This document shows, piece by piece, positions 28,852 through 54,328 of a DNA stretch of 54,330 nucleotides. The DNA lies in contig CALWOW010000026.1 of NCBI GenBank assembly GCA_944383295.1, positions 1-54,330 of the forward strand, in the 5' to 3' direction. The notes beneath the pieces are model-generated. The model saw only the letters and a list, made by a program, of their open reading frames with translations. It did not search any database and was not told where the DNA came from. A program made the position numbers and the translations under genes. Source of the stretch: an uncultured Clostridia bacterium. Lineage in GTDB: Bacteria; Bacillota; Clostridia; Christensenellales; UBA1242. How positions within the stretch are numbered: position 1 is the stretch's first letter; each line of letters starts with the position of its first letter.

Positions 28852-28901
28852 TTAACTTAAATAATATAAAACAAGCTACAATCGCACTTCCAATGGCGGA
28901 A
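28852..28901 (+). repeat. Imperfect direct repeat, copy 2, at the tRNA-Ser 3' end
   Basis: 50 nt matching 27779-27827. Its last 8 bases are the encoded CCA, discriminator and first acceptor-stem bases of tRNA-Ser(CGA). Confidence 0.65.
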
Positions 28902-28981
28902 GAGGGCGGATTTGAACCGCCGGTACCTTGCGGTACACTTGTTTTCGAGACAAGCACATTCGACCACTCTGACACTCTTCC
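28894..28981 (-). tRNA. tRNA-Ser (anticodon CGA)
   Basis: Minus strand: acceptor GGAAGAG/CTCTTCC, discriminator G plus encoded CCA (28896-28894), anticodon stem CTTGT/ACAAG around loop CTCGAAA giving CGA (UCG codons). A long variable arm with stem GTACC/GGTAC follows, and the T arm is GCGG-TTCAAAT-CCGC. All class II serine features are present. Confidence 0.96.
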
Positions 28982-47832: not shown

Positions 47833-49002
47833 ATGGATAAAAAACCAAGAGTTGTATTTACATTTGTGGAAGCGGGTATGGGACATATCGTTCCAGCAAC
47901 AGGTATTAGTGATGCTTTTGAGAAAAAATATGGTGATGTTTGCGAAGTTGTAAGAAGTTATATTTTTAAAGAAGATAATCAAAAAGAATTGTTAGAATAT
48001 CAAGATGTCTTGATAAATGATACAAAAAAATTGGCAAAATCAAAGATATATGCGTATTTTGAGCATAATTTGGGCGAAATGATTGGCTCGAAATTAACTT
48101 TGAAATTTTTAGATAATCATTTTAAAAAAGTAATTCCTTTTATAGAGCAAAAGTTGATTGATTTAAAACCTGATGTATTATTTGCTTCGTATTATTCACC
48201 TGCGCATTATGCTCTTAATTTGAAACAAAAAGGGAAGCTTGATTGCAGTGTTGTGACTTATATTCCTGACCCTATTTTGTATTCTGCTTGGGATAGACGT
48301 GCAGATATATTTATAACAAACAATTCGCAAGCCTATAATATTGCAAAAAAAGAATGCAAACATAACGTGTTTGAAGTTCCTTTTGTATTAAGAAAAGAAG
48401 CAAATGAGATAAAATTAAGTAAACAAGAAATGAGAGAAAAATTAGGTTTACCACTTGATAAATTTACCATTTTGTTGAGTGATGGTGCTTACGGACAAAA
48501 GAAATTAAAAGAATACACTGAATATTTGATAAATTTGGATAAAAATATTACCGTAATTTCTATTTGTGGAAAAAACACAGAACTGTTGGAGTATTTCAAA
48601 ACTTTAAAACCTAATAAAAATGTGACATTCTTGCCATTAGGATTTGTCACTAATATGTTAGAATATAATAGGGCATCAGATTTATTTGTTGGTAAAGGTG
48701 GAGCAAATGCACTTGTTGAATCTTTCTACTTTGGTACGCCAGCACTTGTTTCTGCCTATGCAAATAGGTTGGAGTACTATATTTCAAATTTTTATATTAC
48801 AAAATGTCGATGTGGTGAACTTGCTTTAAATTTAAAAACATTTAAGAAAAAAATAAATGCAATTTTAGAAAATCCTAAAATTTTAGATGAATATGTACAC
48901 AACTTACAACCTTTACAGGATAATAGTGGCGCAGAAAAATCTGCAGATATTATTTTTGAAGAGTTAACCAAAAAATTTCCACAATTAAAACAAAATAATT
49001 AA
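47833..49002 (+). CDS. GT28/MGDG-synthase-like glycosyltransferase
   Basis: 389 residues. The N-terminal GMGHIVPATGISDAF matches the G-x-G-H acceptor loop of MurG/UgtP-like GT-B enzymes. The C-terminal half has LLSDGAYGQKKL and the donor-binding VGKGGANALVESFYFGTPALV. It is likely a lipid glycosyltransferase acting at the inner face of the membrane, for example making glycosyl-diacylglycerol; the sugar and acceptor are not decidable. MurG itself is less likely given the divergent N-terminus. AGGAG precedes the ATG. It converges on a GT4 gene with which it shares a terminator. Confidence 0.83.
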   Translation: MDKKPRVVFTFVEAGMGHIVPATGISDAFEKKYGDVCEVVRSYIFKEDNQKELLEYQDVLINDTKKLAKSKIYAYFEHNLGEMIGSKLTLKFLDNHFKKVIPFIEQKLIDLKPDVLFASYYSPAHYALNLKQKGKLDCSVVTYIPDPILYSAWDRRADIFITNNSQAYNIAKKECKHNVFEVPFVLRKEANEIKLSKQEMREKLGLPLDKFTILLSDGAYGQKKLKEYTEYLINLDKNITVISICGKNTELLEYFKTLKPNKNVTFLPLGFVTNMLEYNRASDLFVGKGGANALVESFYFGTPALVSAYANRLEYYISNFYITKCRCGELALNLKTFKKKINAILENPKILDEYVHNLQPLQDNSGAEKSADIIFEELTKKFPQLKQNN

Positions 49003-49011
49003 TTTAACAAA

Positions 49012-49038
49012 AAAACACACTATTATTTAGTGTGTTTT
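49012..49038. terminator. Bidirectional intrinsic terminator
   Basis: Stem AAAACACACTA (49012-49022) / TAGTGTGTTTT (49028-49038), 5-nt loop, between the GT28-like and GT4 genes. Confidence 0.9.
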
Positions 49039-50201
49039 AATTTATAGTCTTCAATGATTTCTCGGTATCTTTTGCTTACTTCTTCTGCTACTTGGTCCCA
49101 CGATTTGTAAACTTGTGCGTATGTAGCTTCTTTTACTGTTTTTAATTTTTCTTTGTCATTGATTATTTCGCAAATCTTTTCTGCCCAACTTTCTGGGGTT
49201 TCATCTGCCAAAAAGCCATTTACGTTTTCAGTAATTATTTCAGCAGTAGAACAACCACGAGTCATTATAGAAGGAAGTTCTAATGCGGCAGCTTCAATAG
49301 GCGCCAAACTTGCGGTGTCAAAAGTAGAAGGGAATATAAACAAATCACTTCTTAAATAATGTGCAGACAAAAAGTCACGGTCCATAATTTTACCAGTAAA
49401 AATTACTTCATTTTCTAAATTTAATTTTTTAACTTTTTCTTTCAAATCTTTTAAGTAGGGACCGTCACCAACTATCAAATACTTAAAGTTATGACCTTTG
49501 TCCTTTACAATTTTCATTGCATCTAATGTTAAATCTAATTTTTTATTTTCTACAATGCGTCCTACGGATAAAAATACATTTTCTTCATTTTCTAAATTAT
49601 ATGTTTGATTTACTAATTTGATTTTTTCTTCTTGGTTTTCTGGTAGAGTTAAGTCAGTACCATTTCGAATAACTTCAATGTTTTTCGTACAACCATACTC
49701 ACGCAATACTTCGGCAGCACCGTTACTAACGGTCCATACATAATCGGCTTTGTTTATTGTTTTCATAATGTAGTTCATCATAAAATTTACAAGAGATTTA
49801 GTTTTTAACATCCGTTGAAAATCTTCTTTAAATTTTGTATGAAATGAAAAAATTGTAGGAATATTATGCTTTTTACCATATTTAACAAAATATTTCCCCA
49901 TAGTGAAAGGTGAATGAAAGTGAATCAAATCAATTTTTTTATTTTTTAAAAATTTTGCAAGTTTTGCATCCATACTAGGCAAACCAGCATAATAACCTTC
50001 AGGACCTTTTGATGATGTAGTTCTAAATATCTCAAATGGTTGGTTATCCACATATTTAGGAAATTTGGGCACGATTACAGTAGGATTAATTCCGTTACCT
50101 TGCTTTATAAAACTTTTACAATAACTAGTTATAACAAGCGTTGGTCCGTCAAATTTAGGGTAATAGCAATCTAAAATTTCAAGAACATTTATTTCTTCCA
50201 T
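49023..50201 (-). CDS. GT4-family glycosyltransferase (diglucosyl-lipid type)
   Basis: 392 residues from the ATG at 50201, with AAGGAG upstream; the longer frame has no ribosome site. GT-B fold: the N-terminal domain includes DLIHFHSPFTMG and IFSFHTKF. The C-terminal domain has SVGRIVENKKLDL, IVGDGPYL and the donor site with PIEAAALELPSIMT (E-x7-E type). The overall pattern resembles 1,2-diacylglycerol 3-glucosyltransferases of Bacillota. Its neighbour is a GT28-like enzyme, so the pair may add successive sugars to a membrane lipid; that is inference. Confidence 0.88.
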   Translation of the reverse strand: MEEINVLEILDCYYPKFDGPTLVITSYCKSFIKQGNGINPTVIVPKFPKYVDNQPFEIFRTTSSKGPEGYYAGLPSMDAKLAKFLKNKKIDLIHFHSPFTMGKYFVKYGKKHNIPTIFSFHTKFKEDFQRMLKTKSLVNFMMNYIMKTINKADYVWTVSNGAAEVLREYGCTKNIEVIRNGTDLTLPENQEEKIKLVNQTYNLENEENVFLSVGRIVENKKLDLTLDAMKIVKDKGHNFKYLIVGDGPYLKDLKEKVKKLNLENEVIFTGKIMDRDFLSAHYLRSDLFIFPSTFDTASLAPIEAAALELPSIMTRGCSTAEIITENVNGFLADETPESWAEKICEIINDKEKLKTVKEATYAQVYKSWDQVAEEVSKRYREIIEDYKLKHTK

Positions 50202-50406: not shown

Positions 50407-51426
50407 ATGGGGATTTTAAAAAATATCGAGTGGACCGATACGAATAGTGATTTGATTTTATGGAAATATCCTATAAAAAAAGACCACGTAAACAAGGGGT
50501 CGGCTTTAACTGTTAGAGAAAGTCAGGTTGCAATTTTTGTTGATAAAGGGCGACTTGCAGATGTATTTTTGCCGGGGTATTACAAATTAGATACTCAAAA
50601 TATGCCTATATTGACTACTTTGATGTCTTGGAAATATGGGTTTGAGACACCATTCAAGTCCGATATTTATTTTGTAAATACAAAACAATTTACAAATCAA
50701 AAATGGGGAACAGCAAATCCTATTTTAGTCCGTGATAAAGATTACGGCGCGGTAAGAATAAGGGGTTTTGGTACTTATTCATTTAAAGTTGATGATGCGT
50801 ATGTATTTATGCAAAATTTAAGTGGCACAAATACAAGTTTCGATACAAAGCAAATTACTGATTATTTGCGAAGTATGGTTATCTCTGGGATTTCGGATGC
50901 AATAGGTGAGTGTAAAATACCTGTTCTTGATATGGCAGGCAATTTGCAAGAATTGTCTCAAATAGTTGAGAAAAAAATGGAAGTAGATTTCAAAGAAATC
51001 GGTTTAAAATTGAGCAACTTCGTTTTTGAAAGTTTTTCATTGCCAGAAGAATTGGAAAAGGCTTTGGATAAAAACACAAGTTTGGGTATGATGCGTAACA
51101 ATATGGATATTTATACTCAAATGGAAACTTTGGAAGCAATGAAAGAAGCGGCAAAAAATCCAGGTTCGGCAGGTGGTGCTATGGGCGCAGGTATGGGGCT
51201 TGGAATGGGGATGGGTATTGGTAACATATTCTCAAACAATATGCAACAAATGCAACAAAATCAACAGAATGCAAAATTTTGTCCTAGTTGCGGCGCTCAA
51301 TTAAATGGAACACCAAAGTTTTGTCCTGAATGCGGACAAAATTTAAAACCAACTTGTCCAAATTGCGGTGCAGAAGTAAAATCTTCGGCAAAGTTTTGTC
51401 CAGAGTGTGGGAGTAAATTGAAATGA
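50407..51426 (+). CDS. SPFH-domain protein with C-terminal zinc ribbons (YdjI-like)
   Basis: 339 residues. Residues ~25-225 form a band-7/SPFH domain of the YdjI type (VRESQVAIFVDKGRLADVFLPG, RIRGFGTYSFKVDDAYVF). A Gly/Met-rich linker (about 258-283) leads to paired zinc-ribbon cysteines in the last 50 residues: CPSCG, CPECG, CPNCG and CPECG. In B. subtilis YdjI is a flotillin-like protein working with YdjG, YdjH and PspA at the membrane. AAGGAG precedes the ATG. Its TGA overlaps the next ATG. Confidence 0.88.
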   Translation: MGILKNIEWTDTNSDLILWKYPIKKDHVNKGSALTVRESQVAIFVDKGRLADVFLPGYYKLDTQNMPILTTLMSWKYGFETPFKSDIYFVNTKQFTNQKWGTANPILVRDKDYGAVRIRGFGTYSFKVDDAYVFMQNLSGTNTSFDTKQITDYLRSMVISGISDAIGECKIPVLDMAGNLQELSQIVEKKMEVDFKEIGLKLSNFVFESFSLPEELEKALDKNTSLGMMRNNMDIYTQMETLEAMKEAAKNPGSAGGAMGAGMGLGMGMGIGNIFSNNMQQMQQNQQNAKFCPSCGAQLNGTPKFCPECGQNLKPTCPNCGAEVKSSAKFCPECGSKLK

Positions 51427-52514
51427 GTGAAAATGCTCAAAATAAACTATACACAGATGAAAAGTTAGATACAAGTGTTTATAAATGTCCAAATTGTGGC
51501 GGTGAGGCTGTTTTTGATGCCGAATTGCAAAAAATGCGTTGCTTGTATTGTGATAGTACTTTTGAAGTTAAAAATGAAGAAAAAGTAACTGAAAAATCTA
51601 TTGATGATTTGTTGAATAATGCAAAAGTTTGGGACGAAGCAGAAGTTTATCAATGTAAAACTTGTGGTGCAAAAGAAATTTTAAACAAGCAAGAAGTGGC
51701 AATGACTTGTCCTTTTTGCGGTACTAATAATATTGTGAAAACGGAAGAATTGCCGGGATTAAAGCCACAAGGTGTTGTACCTTTTAAAATAAGTAAAGAG
51801 CGTGCAGGTCGTATTGCTACTAATTGGGCAAGGAGAAAATTTTGGGCACCCAATGCATTTAAAAAAAGTGCAAGCCCAGAAAAACTAGCAGGTTTATACA
51901 ATCCTGTATTCACCTTTGATGCGGAAACAAGTTCGACATACGATGGGCAATTAGGTAAAAATTATACTACTGTGCGATATATAAATGGTAAGCCTATTAC
52001 AGAAGTGCATACAAGATATTTTTACATCAAGGGAAGCAAAAATGTAACTTTTGATGACTATATAATTCAAGCATCTTCAAATTTAAACACTAATACAATA
52101 AAAGAAATTTCACCTTTCCCAACGAATGATGCACCTGTGTATAAGACTGAATATTTGAGAGGGTATAGCGCAAACACTTATAACAAAGATGGTAAGCAGT
52201 GTTGGAATGAATGCCAAAATCTTATGAAATATGACATTGAAAAAGCAATTTTAAGCAAATATGATTATGATATTAAGTCATATTTGAATATCAAAACTGC
52301 ATATTTAAAACAAAAATATAAGTTCGTACTTGTTCCGTTATATGTTGGGCATTGTAAATATAAAAATAAATTATATAATTTTTTTATAAACGGCTCTACG
52401 GGTAAAATAACAGGCAAAACCCCAGTTTCGGGGTGGAAAGTTTTTCTTGCTGTATTGTTTGGAATTTTGTTAGTTGGTGGAATTGCCTTAATCGTTAATT
52501 TCTTTGGAAATTAA
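51423..52514 (+). CDS. Double zinc-ribbon protein with C-terminal membrane helix (YdjG-like)
   Basis: 363 residues. Two zinc ribbons at the N-terminus (CPNCGG...CLYCD about 22-42; CKTCGA...CPFCG about 77-98) are followed by a ~220-residue region with ARRKFWAPNAFKK, LAGLYNPVFTFDA and FVLVPLYVGHCKYK. A single C-terminal membrane helix lies at about 338-360. This is the layout of the TFIIB-type zinc-ribbon proteins found beside SPFH genes in Bacillota. It starts within the SPFH gene's stop (ATGA), so the two are translated together and probably form one complex. Confidence 0.85.
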   Translation: MSENAQNKLYTDEKLDTSVYKCPNCGGEAVFDAELQKMRCLYCDSTFEVKNEEKVTEKSIDDLLNNAKVWDEAEVYQCKTCGAKEILNKQEVAMTCPFCGTNNIVKTEELPGLKPQGVVPFKISKERAGRIATNWARRKFWAPNAFKKSASPEKLAGLYNPVFTFDAETSSTYDGQLGKNYTTVRYINGKPITEVHTRYFYIKGSKNVTFDDYIIQASSNLNTNTIKEISPFPTNDAPVYKTEYLRGYSANTYNKDGKQCWNECQNLMKYDIEKAILSKYDYDIKSYLNIKTAYLKQKYKFVLVPLYVGHCKYKNKLYNFFINGSTGKITGKTPVSGWKVFLAVLFGILLVGGIALIVNFFGN

Positions 52515-52614
52515 ATAAATATAAGTAAATGTAGCAAAAGATTGCGCAAAATGAAGTATTATGCAAAATTTTGTAGGTACTATGCAATAAAATTATAAAG
52601 GAGAAAAGGGTTTT

Positions 52615-53034
52615 ATGGTTTGGAGCGAAATAGCGCTTATTTGTGTTTCTATTGTTCTCTTGCTTGTTGTTATTGCTTGGGTCTGTGTTGCACTTAAACA
52701 AAAAGACAATGCAAAAAATAATAGGGTAGATGATATTTATATCAAAGATGGCATTCGCTATACCAAAAGCGGAGAAGTTTTGGATAAAGATGGTAAAGTA
52801 AAAGTCAGTTTGAACAAAGGCGATATATTGCTTGAACGAGGTAAGGAGTACAAAGTAGGTGAAAAAGGCGATTTACTCGCAGGGAAATATACCGTTTTAT
52901 CTGCGGACGAAAATTTGGATAGTGTAAATATTCGTGTAGGTGGTCTTGTGCGAGAGTATAAACATTTTTCATCTATTGTTTTAACAGAAGGCGATACAAT
53001 AAGTGCTGTATCCGCTAATGTGATTTTAAGATAG
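52615..53034 (+). CDS. Membrane-anchored small beta-domain protein
   Basis: 139 residues. One N-terminal membrane helix (about 5-28), then a hydrophilic domain with a repeating hydrophobic pattern (LLERGKEYKVG, DLLAGKYTVLSAD, VNIRVGGLVREYKH, TISAVSANVILR) suggesting a small beta-barrel. I have a memory of similar sequences beside SPFH/zinc-ribbon genes but cannot name a family. AAAGGAG precedes the ATG. Third gene of the operon, 100 nt after the second and 13 nt before the fourth. Confidence 0.78.
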   Translation: MVWSEIALICVSIVLLLVVIAWVCVALKQKDNAKNNRVDDIYIKDGIRYTKSGEVLDKDGKVKVSLNKGDILLERGKEYKVGEKGDLLAGKYTVLSADENLDSVNIRVGGLVREYKHFSSIVLTEGDTISAVSANVILR

Positions 53035-53047
53035 GGAGGTTAGTTTT

Positions 53048-53494
53048 ATGAGTATGAGTAGAAATATGCTTTATAAACTTTTAGGAGCATTGATAGTATT
53101 AGTTGCTGCTGTGTTATGGCTTTTGTCTGTGGTTGTCCCTGAAAGTTTTGGATTTTTTAATCTTGCTTGGGCTGGTGTGATTATTTGTGGTGGTTTGGGC
53201 TTAATAATGTTGTTACAAGGTTCTTTTCAACAAAATGTTAGTACAATAAAAAAATTAAAGATTTGGTTTGGTGTGGCTTTGTTGATTTGTGCTATTGCTT
53301 GTTTGGTATCTGCTATTGCTATTCCTTCAAGTATCGTATTGCCAATCATTGCAATAGTTGTTGCTTTTGGTTTGGTGATTACAATTTTTGCAACTGGTGG
53401 TGCAAAATGGGACGAGGGTGATAATCATAAAGTAGGATACAAAAATTATCACGAACGTAAAGCGGAAGAAGAAAAACAAAATAAACAAGATTAA
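53048..53494 (+). CDS. Hypothetical four-helix membrane protein
   Basis: 148 residues, not recognised. Hydrophobic helices at about 9-30, 36-56, 68-90 and 93-115, then a ~30-residue charged cytosolic tail rich in Lys and Glu. AGGGAGG precedes the ATG. The position between two other small membrane proteins of the SPFH operon suggests a subunit of the same membrane assembly. Confidence 0.8.
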   Translation: MSMSRNMLYKLLGALIVLVAAVLWLLSVVVPESFGFFNLAWAGVIICGGLGLIMLLQGSFQQNVSTIKKLKIWFGVALLICAIACLVSAIAIPSSIVLPIIAIVVAFGLVITIFATGGAKWDEGDNHKVGYKNYHERKAEEEKQNKQD

Positions 53495-53516
53495 TTAAAA
53501 ATATTTTGGAGTAAAA

Positions 53517-54020
53517 ATGGAAAATAAAACAAATAAAATAAGTGCCGATTTGAAATCAAAATTAATTTGGTCAGTCGTGATTACTTGTGCGTTAATTGTT
53601 GGTATTCCTTTGCTAATTTTGGGTGCGGTTAAGGGAATTTGGTTTTTGCTTGCTTTTGGAATAGCTTGTGCGGTAGTTGGCTTTTATGGAACACCATTGA
53701 TGTGGGTATCGTATGCGGAATTACGAGCGTTGAAACGAGTGGTAGATGCGGTGATGGAAGAGCATTTGAACACGGTAAGCGAAATTTCTTCACATTTAGT
53801 TTTGAGTGAAAGGGTAGCGAAACAGTCAGTTACAAAGGCAATAAACAAAAAGTATATAACAGGATACATTTTTGATGGCGAAAAATTAGTTCCAAACGAA
53901 AAACAAGCACCAAAGAAAAAATTGGTACAAACAAAATGCGCAAATTGTGGTGGCTCTTTAAAGGAAGAGCAGAATACCTATGTTTGTGAATATTGTGGTT
54001 CTATTTTTAATAAAGAGTAG
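53517..54020 (+). CDS. Membrane protein with winged-helix-like region and zinc ribbon
   Basis: 167 residues. Two membrane helices (about 17-38 and 42-62). A ~55-residue helical region (VDAVMEEHLNTVSEISSHLV to YITGYIFDGEKLV) patterned like a winged helix comes next. The C-terminal zinc ribbon is CANCGG...CEYCGS (about 141-160). It shares zinc-ribbon type with the first two genes of the operon, tying the cluster together. GGAG lies 7 nt before the ATG. The operon terminator follows at 54080. Confidence 0.8.
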   Translation: MENKTNKISADLKSKLIWSVVITCALIVGIPLLILGAVKGIWFLLAFGIACAVVGFYGTPLMWVSYAELRALKRVVDAVMEEHLNTVSEISSHLVLSERVAKQSVTKAINKKYITGYIFDGEKLVPNEKQAPKKKLVQTKCANCGGSLKEEQNTYVCEYCGSIFNKE

Positions 54021-54079
54021 TTGAATTTTATTTTGTTTGTTTTTGGGTATTAGTAGATAAATTTTTATAAAAAATTAAG

Positions 54080-54108
54080 AGTAAATGTTTTGTGCATTTA
54101 CTTTTTTT
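54080..54108 (+). terminator. Terminator of the SPFH/zinc-ribbon operon
   Basis: Stem AGTAAATG (54080-54087) / CATTTACT (54095-54102), 7-nt loop, T-run. Confidence 0.85.
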
Positions 54109-54240
54109 GTTATCAAATTATAAAAATTAAAATTTTAAGAAAATTTTTATTAAAACAGTTGAAAATTAATTTAATTTTGTGTATAATAAATCTATACGCT
54201 TCTAGTATAAAGATAGCGATTAATTAATATTTAAGAAAAT

Positions 54241-54328
54241 GGAAGGCTGGCTGAGCGGTCGAAAGCGGCGGTCTTGAAAACCGTTGTGCCGAGAGGCACC
54301 TGGGGTTCGAATCCCTAGCCTTCCGCCA
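54241..54328 (+). tRNA. tRNA-Ser (anticodon TGA)
   Basis: Acceptor GGAAGGC/GCCTTCC, discriminator G, encoded CCA (54326-54328). The anticodon stem GCGGT/ACCGT encloses loop CTTGAAA, giving TGA (UCA codons). A long variable arm GTGCC/GGCAC and the T loop TTCGAAT complete a class II serine tRNA. Confidence 0.97.

Follow-up and report, generated by a model that had tools for sequence, protein, structure and literature searches.

The subject of this analysis is a run of five genes, here called g1 to g5, that places an SPFH protein (g1) and a double zinc-ribbon protein (g2) beside three small membrane proteins (g3, g4, and g5) in an uncultured Clostridia bacterium. The window, meaning the whole stretch of DNA that was analyzed, is the entire 54,330-nucleotide contig CALWOW010000026.1 of a draft genome (GenBank assembly GCA_944383295.1) that totals 1.05 Mb and is 97% complete. 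The source bacterium is a gut organism with a very small genome, and the genomes of its family are about 1 Mb in size. Five open reading frames (ORFs) named in a preliminary description of this DNA are all present on the + strand and fill positions 50407-54020. Their layout is as follows, with lengths in amino acids (aa).

50407-51426, + strand: g1, 339 aa
about 51250-51423, + strand: two C-terminal C4 zinc ribbons of g1
51423-52514, + strand: g2, 363 aa
51486-51719, + strand: two C4 zinc ribbons of g2
52440-52496, + strand: C-terminal membrane helix of g2 (aa 340-358, from hydropathy)
52615-53034, + strand: g3, 139 aa
53048-53494, + strand: g4, 148 aa
53517-54020, + strand: g5, 167 aa
53937-53996, + strand: C-terminal C4 zinc ribbon of g5 (Cys 141, 144, 157, and 160)
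54077-54105, + strand: terminator-like hairpin after g5, with a 12-base-pair (bp) stem and a 5-nucleotide loop followed by a T run

The successive gaps from g1 to g5 are -4, 100, 13, and 22 bp, the first of these being the 4-bp ATGA overlap of g1 and g2 that had been noted previously. A GGAG sequence resembling a Shine-Dalgarno element lies upstream of g1, g3, and g5. The hairpin follows the final protein gene of the contig, beyond which there is a tRNA-Ser gene. Its stem is A+T-rich, and the fold energy over positions 54060-54115 is -11.1 kcal/mol; a consensus scan did not place it among its listed matches. Consensus promoter matches are no more frequent than in shuffled sequence, and a PADLOC scan returned one weak, ribbon-only match and no defence assignment. 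We take the five ORFs to be real genes rather than chance reading frames because every one of them is conserved, with homologues in numerous genomes.

The pspA-ydjGHI operon of Bacillus subtilis encodes PspA, YdjG (two zinc ribbons and a membrane helix), YdjH (a TPM protein), and YdjI (an SPFH protein with a zinc ribbon) (PMC8581546, PMC11237479, PMC9239133). YdjI is soluble, and both YdjG and YdjH are required for the membrane recruitment of YdjI and PspA (PMC8581546, PMC11237479). YdjI foci persist without PspA (PMC8581546), and the loss of YdjI leads to a more rigid membrane (PMC8581546, PMC11237479).

The kinship of g1 and g2 with YdjI and YdjG, suggested in the preliminary description, is borne out by Band_7_1 and ribbon matches and by a g2 profile. 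The Pfam family Band_7_1 (PF13421) matches aa 19-227 of g1 (E 8e-81, 271 bits), and the C-terminus matches the DZR and zinc-ribbon families PF12773 and PF13240, with DZR at aa 292-335. The linker of g1 is rich in Gly, Met, and Gln, and hydropathy reveals no hydrophobic membrane helix in this protein. With Band_7_1, C-terminal ribbons, and no helix of its own, g1 is classified by sequence as a YdjI-type SPFH protein. The g2 protein carries eight cysteines (residues 22, 25, 40, 43, 78, 81, 96, and 99) that are invariant across 29 homologues and correspond to two N-terminal C4 ribbons, and a conserved middle domain lies between these ribbons and the C-terminal helix. The g2 profile also matches the corresponding genes in pspA-g2-TPM-SPFH operons (L280-L284) with E values of 1e-67 to 1e-75, and the PspA and TPM neighbors of those genes were identified by Pfam and profile. 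On the basis of its ribbons, extra domain, helix, and homology, g2 is assigned to the YdjG type.

The partners of this pair are a different matter. We surveyed 118 genomes from 42 genera, all from the window's bacterial family, and the statements on PspA and TPM across the family are based on Pfam models. The preliminary description had portrayed the operon as lacking PspA; no pspA gene is found elsewhere in the window's genome either, and PspA (PF04012) exceeds the cut-off in 0 of the 118 family genomes. A YdjH-type TPM protein is likewise not detected in the window's genome and occurs in 1 of the 118, where its gene lies directly after a second copy of g2 (genome G098, L310:4817-6690). The B. 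subtilis control was positive in both searches. Weak PF04012 matches in seven family genomes were set aside, being below the cut-off and mostly in long ORFs.

A wider comparison was made with 33 g2 loci elsewhere in the phylum that were collected with the g2 profile. Counted at the locus only, an SPFH gene lies nearby in 25, TPM in 22, and pspA in 7; a 23rd TPM match is a short tail match. The slot beside g2 in these organisms is usually held by TPM. The idea that the window's cluster is unusual for lacking an adjacent pspA gene was rejected, since 26 of the 33 loci are also without one. The unusual feature is the loss of TPM together with the genome-wide lack of PspA. Judged from these profile searches, the family has retained the YdjI and YdjG types but not PspA or YdjH.

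The operon position held by YdjH in relatives is occupied here by g3 and g4. As had been suspected, g3, g4, and g5 are undescribed, in that none has a match above the curated cut-off in Pfam or NCBIfam. The g3 protein has an N-terminal membrane helix (aa 3-35), a flexible linker, and a C-terminal beta domain (aa 64-139) whose last residues are ILR. Its AlphaFold2 model has a predicted local distance difference test (pLDDT) score of 78 overall and about 90 in the beta part. Sequence and fold searches of the PDB with g3 yielded only generic beta-sandwich or cupin-like shapes (best Foldseek E 0.005; VIA Z 5.9), from which no function was assigned. Likewise, g3 has no NfeD match in Pfam-A at E values up to 1, although sequence profiles could miss a diverged fold, and a class-level search outside the window's family gave only marginal partial matches. 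In some genera, a stand-alone g3 gene directly follows a gene for a TMEM164-like membrane protein or a metallo-beta-lactamase-fold protein (L216:7192-7956, L213:4010-4576, and L223:7245-7805).

According to hydropathy, g4 has approximately four hydrophobic stretches or membrane helices, and an alignment of homologues reveals a charged tail with the conserved motif GGxKWDxGDNxxxGYKNY. After g4 in genomes G085 (L138:5137-5955, two tandem copies) and G067 (L140:5311-5727, one copy) there are small proteins with an N-terminal zinc ribbon and two membrane helices, which is the reverse of the g5 layout. The AlphaFold2 model of g5 (pLDDT 88) comprises two long helices that are predicted to form a membrane hairpin, a winged-helix-like unit at about aa 70-127, and a C4 ribbon whose four cysteines are invariant across 21 homologues. 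Zinc ribbons are therefore shared by three subunits, as described earlier, with five in total in g1, g2, and g5. The accompanying suggestion of a metal- or redox-sensitive assembly gained no specific evidence, and the ribbons have unremarkable C4 sites whose invariance would be expected of structural zinc.

We consider it moderately probable, from these sequence relationships, that the five genes specify a variant of the YdjG-YdjH-YdjI-type membrane-scaffold complex that is independent of PspA, lacks TPM, and has lineage-specific membrane subunits in place of YdjH. In this reading, g1, the soluble SPFH protein, would form an oligomer and reach the membrane through g2 together with g3, g4, and g5, small membrane proteins that might stand in for YdjH as anchors. 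The five cytosolic ribbons would then serve as structural contact modules that bind the subunits together. Perhaps such a complex maintains membrane integrity or fluidity unaided, with no need for an ESCRT-III-like polymer of PspA.

Gene linkage indicates which genes travel together; adjacency was counted in draft genomes, and the species are not independent. Among the 118 family genomes, g1 is present in 78 (some partial matches included), g2 in 70, g3 in 41, g4 in 13, and g5 in 35, and the single-sequence queries used may overlook diverged forms of g3, g4, and g5. Of the 70 genomes that hold g1 together with g2, 45 have the two genes within 3 kb of each other, which is a lower bound because the contigs are draft. 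The co-occurrence of g3 and g4 with this pair had been proposed as a test of the operon, and both genes do appear with it. Specifically, g4 resides in the cluster (within 3 kb of g1 or g2) in 12 of 13 genomes, the remaining copy being on a separate short contig, and g3 is linked to g1 or g2 in 18 of 41, located after g2 or before g1. Two arrangements, g1-g2-g3-g4 and g3-g1-g2, are found in the family. The core of closely linked genes is g1-g2 with g3, g4, or both, and g5 is an occasional member of the operon.

Several observations weigh against our proposal. No homology of g3 or g4 to YdjH was detected, and so the replacement of YdjH by these proteins is argued from position only. Furthermore, g3 is unlinked in 23 of the 41 family genomes that carry it and g5 in 34 of 35, and both proteins may therefore also work apart from g1-g2. 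Finally, four loci (L155, L161, L162, and L173) have g1-g2 without an adjoining gene for a small membrane protein, and thus the locus does not in every case encode a further membrane partner.

It is also conceivable, though unlikely, that only g1-g4 form the unit and that g5, possibly along with g3, is a small membrane protein without any relation to it, placed there by rearrangement. The frequent separation of g3 agrees with this view, as does the fact that g5 adjoins the cluster only in the window's genome among the 33 family genomes with both g1 and g5, lying apart from it even within the window's genus. However, g5 recurs at the cluster in two further cases. Genome G383, from another genus, has the full order g1-g2-g3-g4-g5 at 43-73% identity (L304), and at L210 a divergent g5 stands beside g1-g3-g4. 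The G383 contig is syntenic with its genus, yet the cluster region is absent from the four relatives compared, and for this reason the block behaves like a single unit subject to gain or loss. None of five searched relatives from this genus has g3 or a full g5.

More evidence on g5 comes from beyond the window's family, where the g5 profile finds many ribbon-only matches and also longer relatives in other families. In four genomes (L347, L348, L349, and L351), a protein with the g5 layout adjoins an SPFH-zinc-ribbon gene directly or one gene away, which also argues against an unrelated g5. The SPFH neighbors in L347 and L351 are supported by Pfam. In L347, L349, and L351, the gene in between specifies a membrane protein with four helices and a C-terminal GGF or GGI, and L350 has a related gene ahead of its g5-like gene. 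The resulting clusters of three or four genes, with an SPFH-ribbon gene, a four-helix gene, and one or two g5-like genes, span L351:5419-8669, L349:7058-9470, and L347:170-2455. For three other g5-layout proteins (L350, L354, and L355), there is no SPFH gene within the stretch examined. The outside g5-like proteins tentatively form their own clade apart from the g5 proteins of the family, with long branches, and a relationship of the four-helix GGF/GGI protein to g4 is doubtful (hhalign probability 85%). An early conclusion from 1.5-kb flanks, that g5 does not belong to the cluster, was revised after these wider searches. Thus, the membership of g5 proposed in the preliminary description stands in part: it rests on G383, L210, and the SPFH-linked g5-like genes elsewhere, whereas within the family only 1 of 33 genomes with g1 and g5 has the two adjacent.

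The winged-helix-like unit raises the question of whether g5 acts on DNA. It is located after the membrane hairpin in the AlphaFold2 model and has weak profile matches to the DNA-binding domains of LrpA, GerE, and MntR (E 0.006-0.9). One could speculate that g5 is a membrane-tethered transcription factor that is held or released by the SPFH/g2 scaffold, such that membrane state is sensed and transcription is altered. The SPFH-linked g5-like genes outside the family fit this view, as does co-occurrence at the genus level, where g2 is present in 18 of 19 genera with g5 versus 12 of 23 others (Fisher p 0.005, uncorrected for phylogeny). However, DDRGK1, a protein-binding winged helix, scores about equally with g5, a Foldseek search of the PDB gave nothing below E 0.28, and g5 is mostly unlinked in the family. 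We therefore regard membrane-to-DNA signaling as improbable. Protein contact is the more likely role of the predicted winged helix; DNA binding is possible but not favored. A bolder extension, in which a general SPFH/zinc-ribbon signaling system of Clostridia uses a g5-type protein to link the scaffold to gene expression and has fully replaced PspA-based maintenance in this reduced-genome family, seems to us quite unlikely.

Other proteins occupy positions near g2 in some relatives. In two genomes of one genus (G043 and G106), the space between g2 and g3 holds a gene for an approximately 222-aa protein with the HExxH motif HEFVH (L135:7848-8513 and L137:7177-7845). This protein is possibly a metalloprotease, and the G043 copy has no Pfam match. 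SPFH proteins are able to scaffold proteases, and perhaps the assembly regulates membrane-protein turnover in the manner of HflK/C-FtsH, with the zinc-ribbon subunits as substrate adaptors. We view this type of membrane quality control as very unlikely: the HExxH protein occurs in neither the window nor most of the clusters, the neighborhood has no invariably present protease gene, and YdjI is otherwise tied to membrane stress (PMC8581546).

Elsewhere in the family, other genera have directly after g2 a gene for a membrane protein with two helices and one or two C-terminal ribbons, which is neither g3 nor g4 (L154:5978-6502, L159:8322-8750, L168:9556-10020, and L172:5900-6328). In genome G255 (L303:769-4253), three consecutive small proteins (195-242 aa) are encoded between a ribbon-bearing SPFH-like gene and g2, each with a ribbon near the C-terminus and a similar ending, W-x-(I/F)-T-(D/E)-I.

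Two glycosyltransferase genes precede the cluster in the window (47833-49002 and 49023-50201), one resembling monogalactosyldiacylglycerol (MGDG) synthase and the other of the GT4 type, and they are possibly involved in glycolipid synthesis. The window also carries three tRNA-Ser genes with different anticodons (2-92, 28894-28981, and 54241-54328), two of which lie exactly at the contig ends. The named related contigs are metagenome-assembled genomes of uncultured Clostridia or Christensenella, many of herbivore-gut origin.

YdjI and YdjG have been studied in B. subtilis as recruiters of PspA. A family with genomes of about 1 Mb that keeps these recruiters without PspA and, with one exception, without TPM implies an independent function for the SPFH/zinc-ribbon pair. 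Among the papers searched, we found no description of a bacterial SPFH/zinc-ribbon module without PspA. What is new here looks like a rebuilt YdjG-YdjI-like complex, in which the core is kept and undescribed small membrane proteins replace the PspA and TPM partners. The analysis names three membrane-protein families (g3, g4, and g5) and, as a directly testable design that recurs, small membrane hairpins that bear cytosolic zinc ribbons and accompany an SPFH protein.

Comparisons with other systems place the unit more precisely. Flotillin/NfeD microdomain operons similarly join an SPFH protein with a membrane-anchored beta-domain protein, but g1 is a Band_7_1 protein with ribbons and no membrane anchor, and g3 is without a Pfam NfeD match. 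The clusters of L347, L349, and L351 have a similar succession, in which an SPFH-zinc-ribbon protein is followed by a membrane protein with four helices and by one with two helices, a winged helix, and a ribbon, but are without g2 and g3. The SPFH-g2-TPM clusters of other Bacillota (for example, L287, L290, L295, and L299) have the same SPFH-g2 order and no adjacent pspA; in these, TPM follows g2, whereas g3-g4(-g5) does so in the window. Finally, the B. subtilis pspA-ydjGHI operon likewise unites an SPFH protein with a C-terminal ribbon (YdjI) and a two-ribbon protein with an extra domain and a membrane helix (YdjG). In contrast, the window's unit resides in a genome without PspA and YdjH, begins with the SPFH gene, and includes the additional genes g3, g4, and g5.

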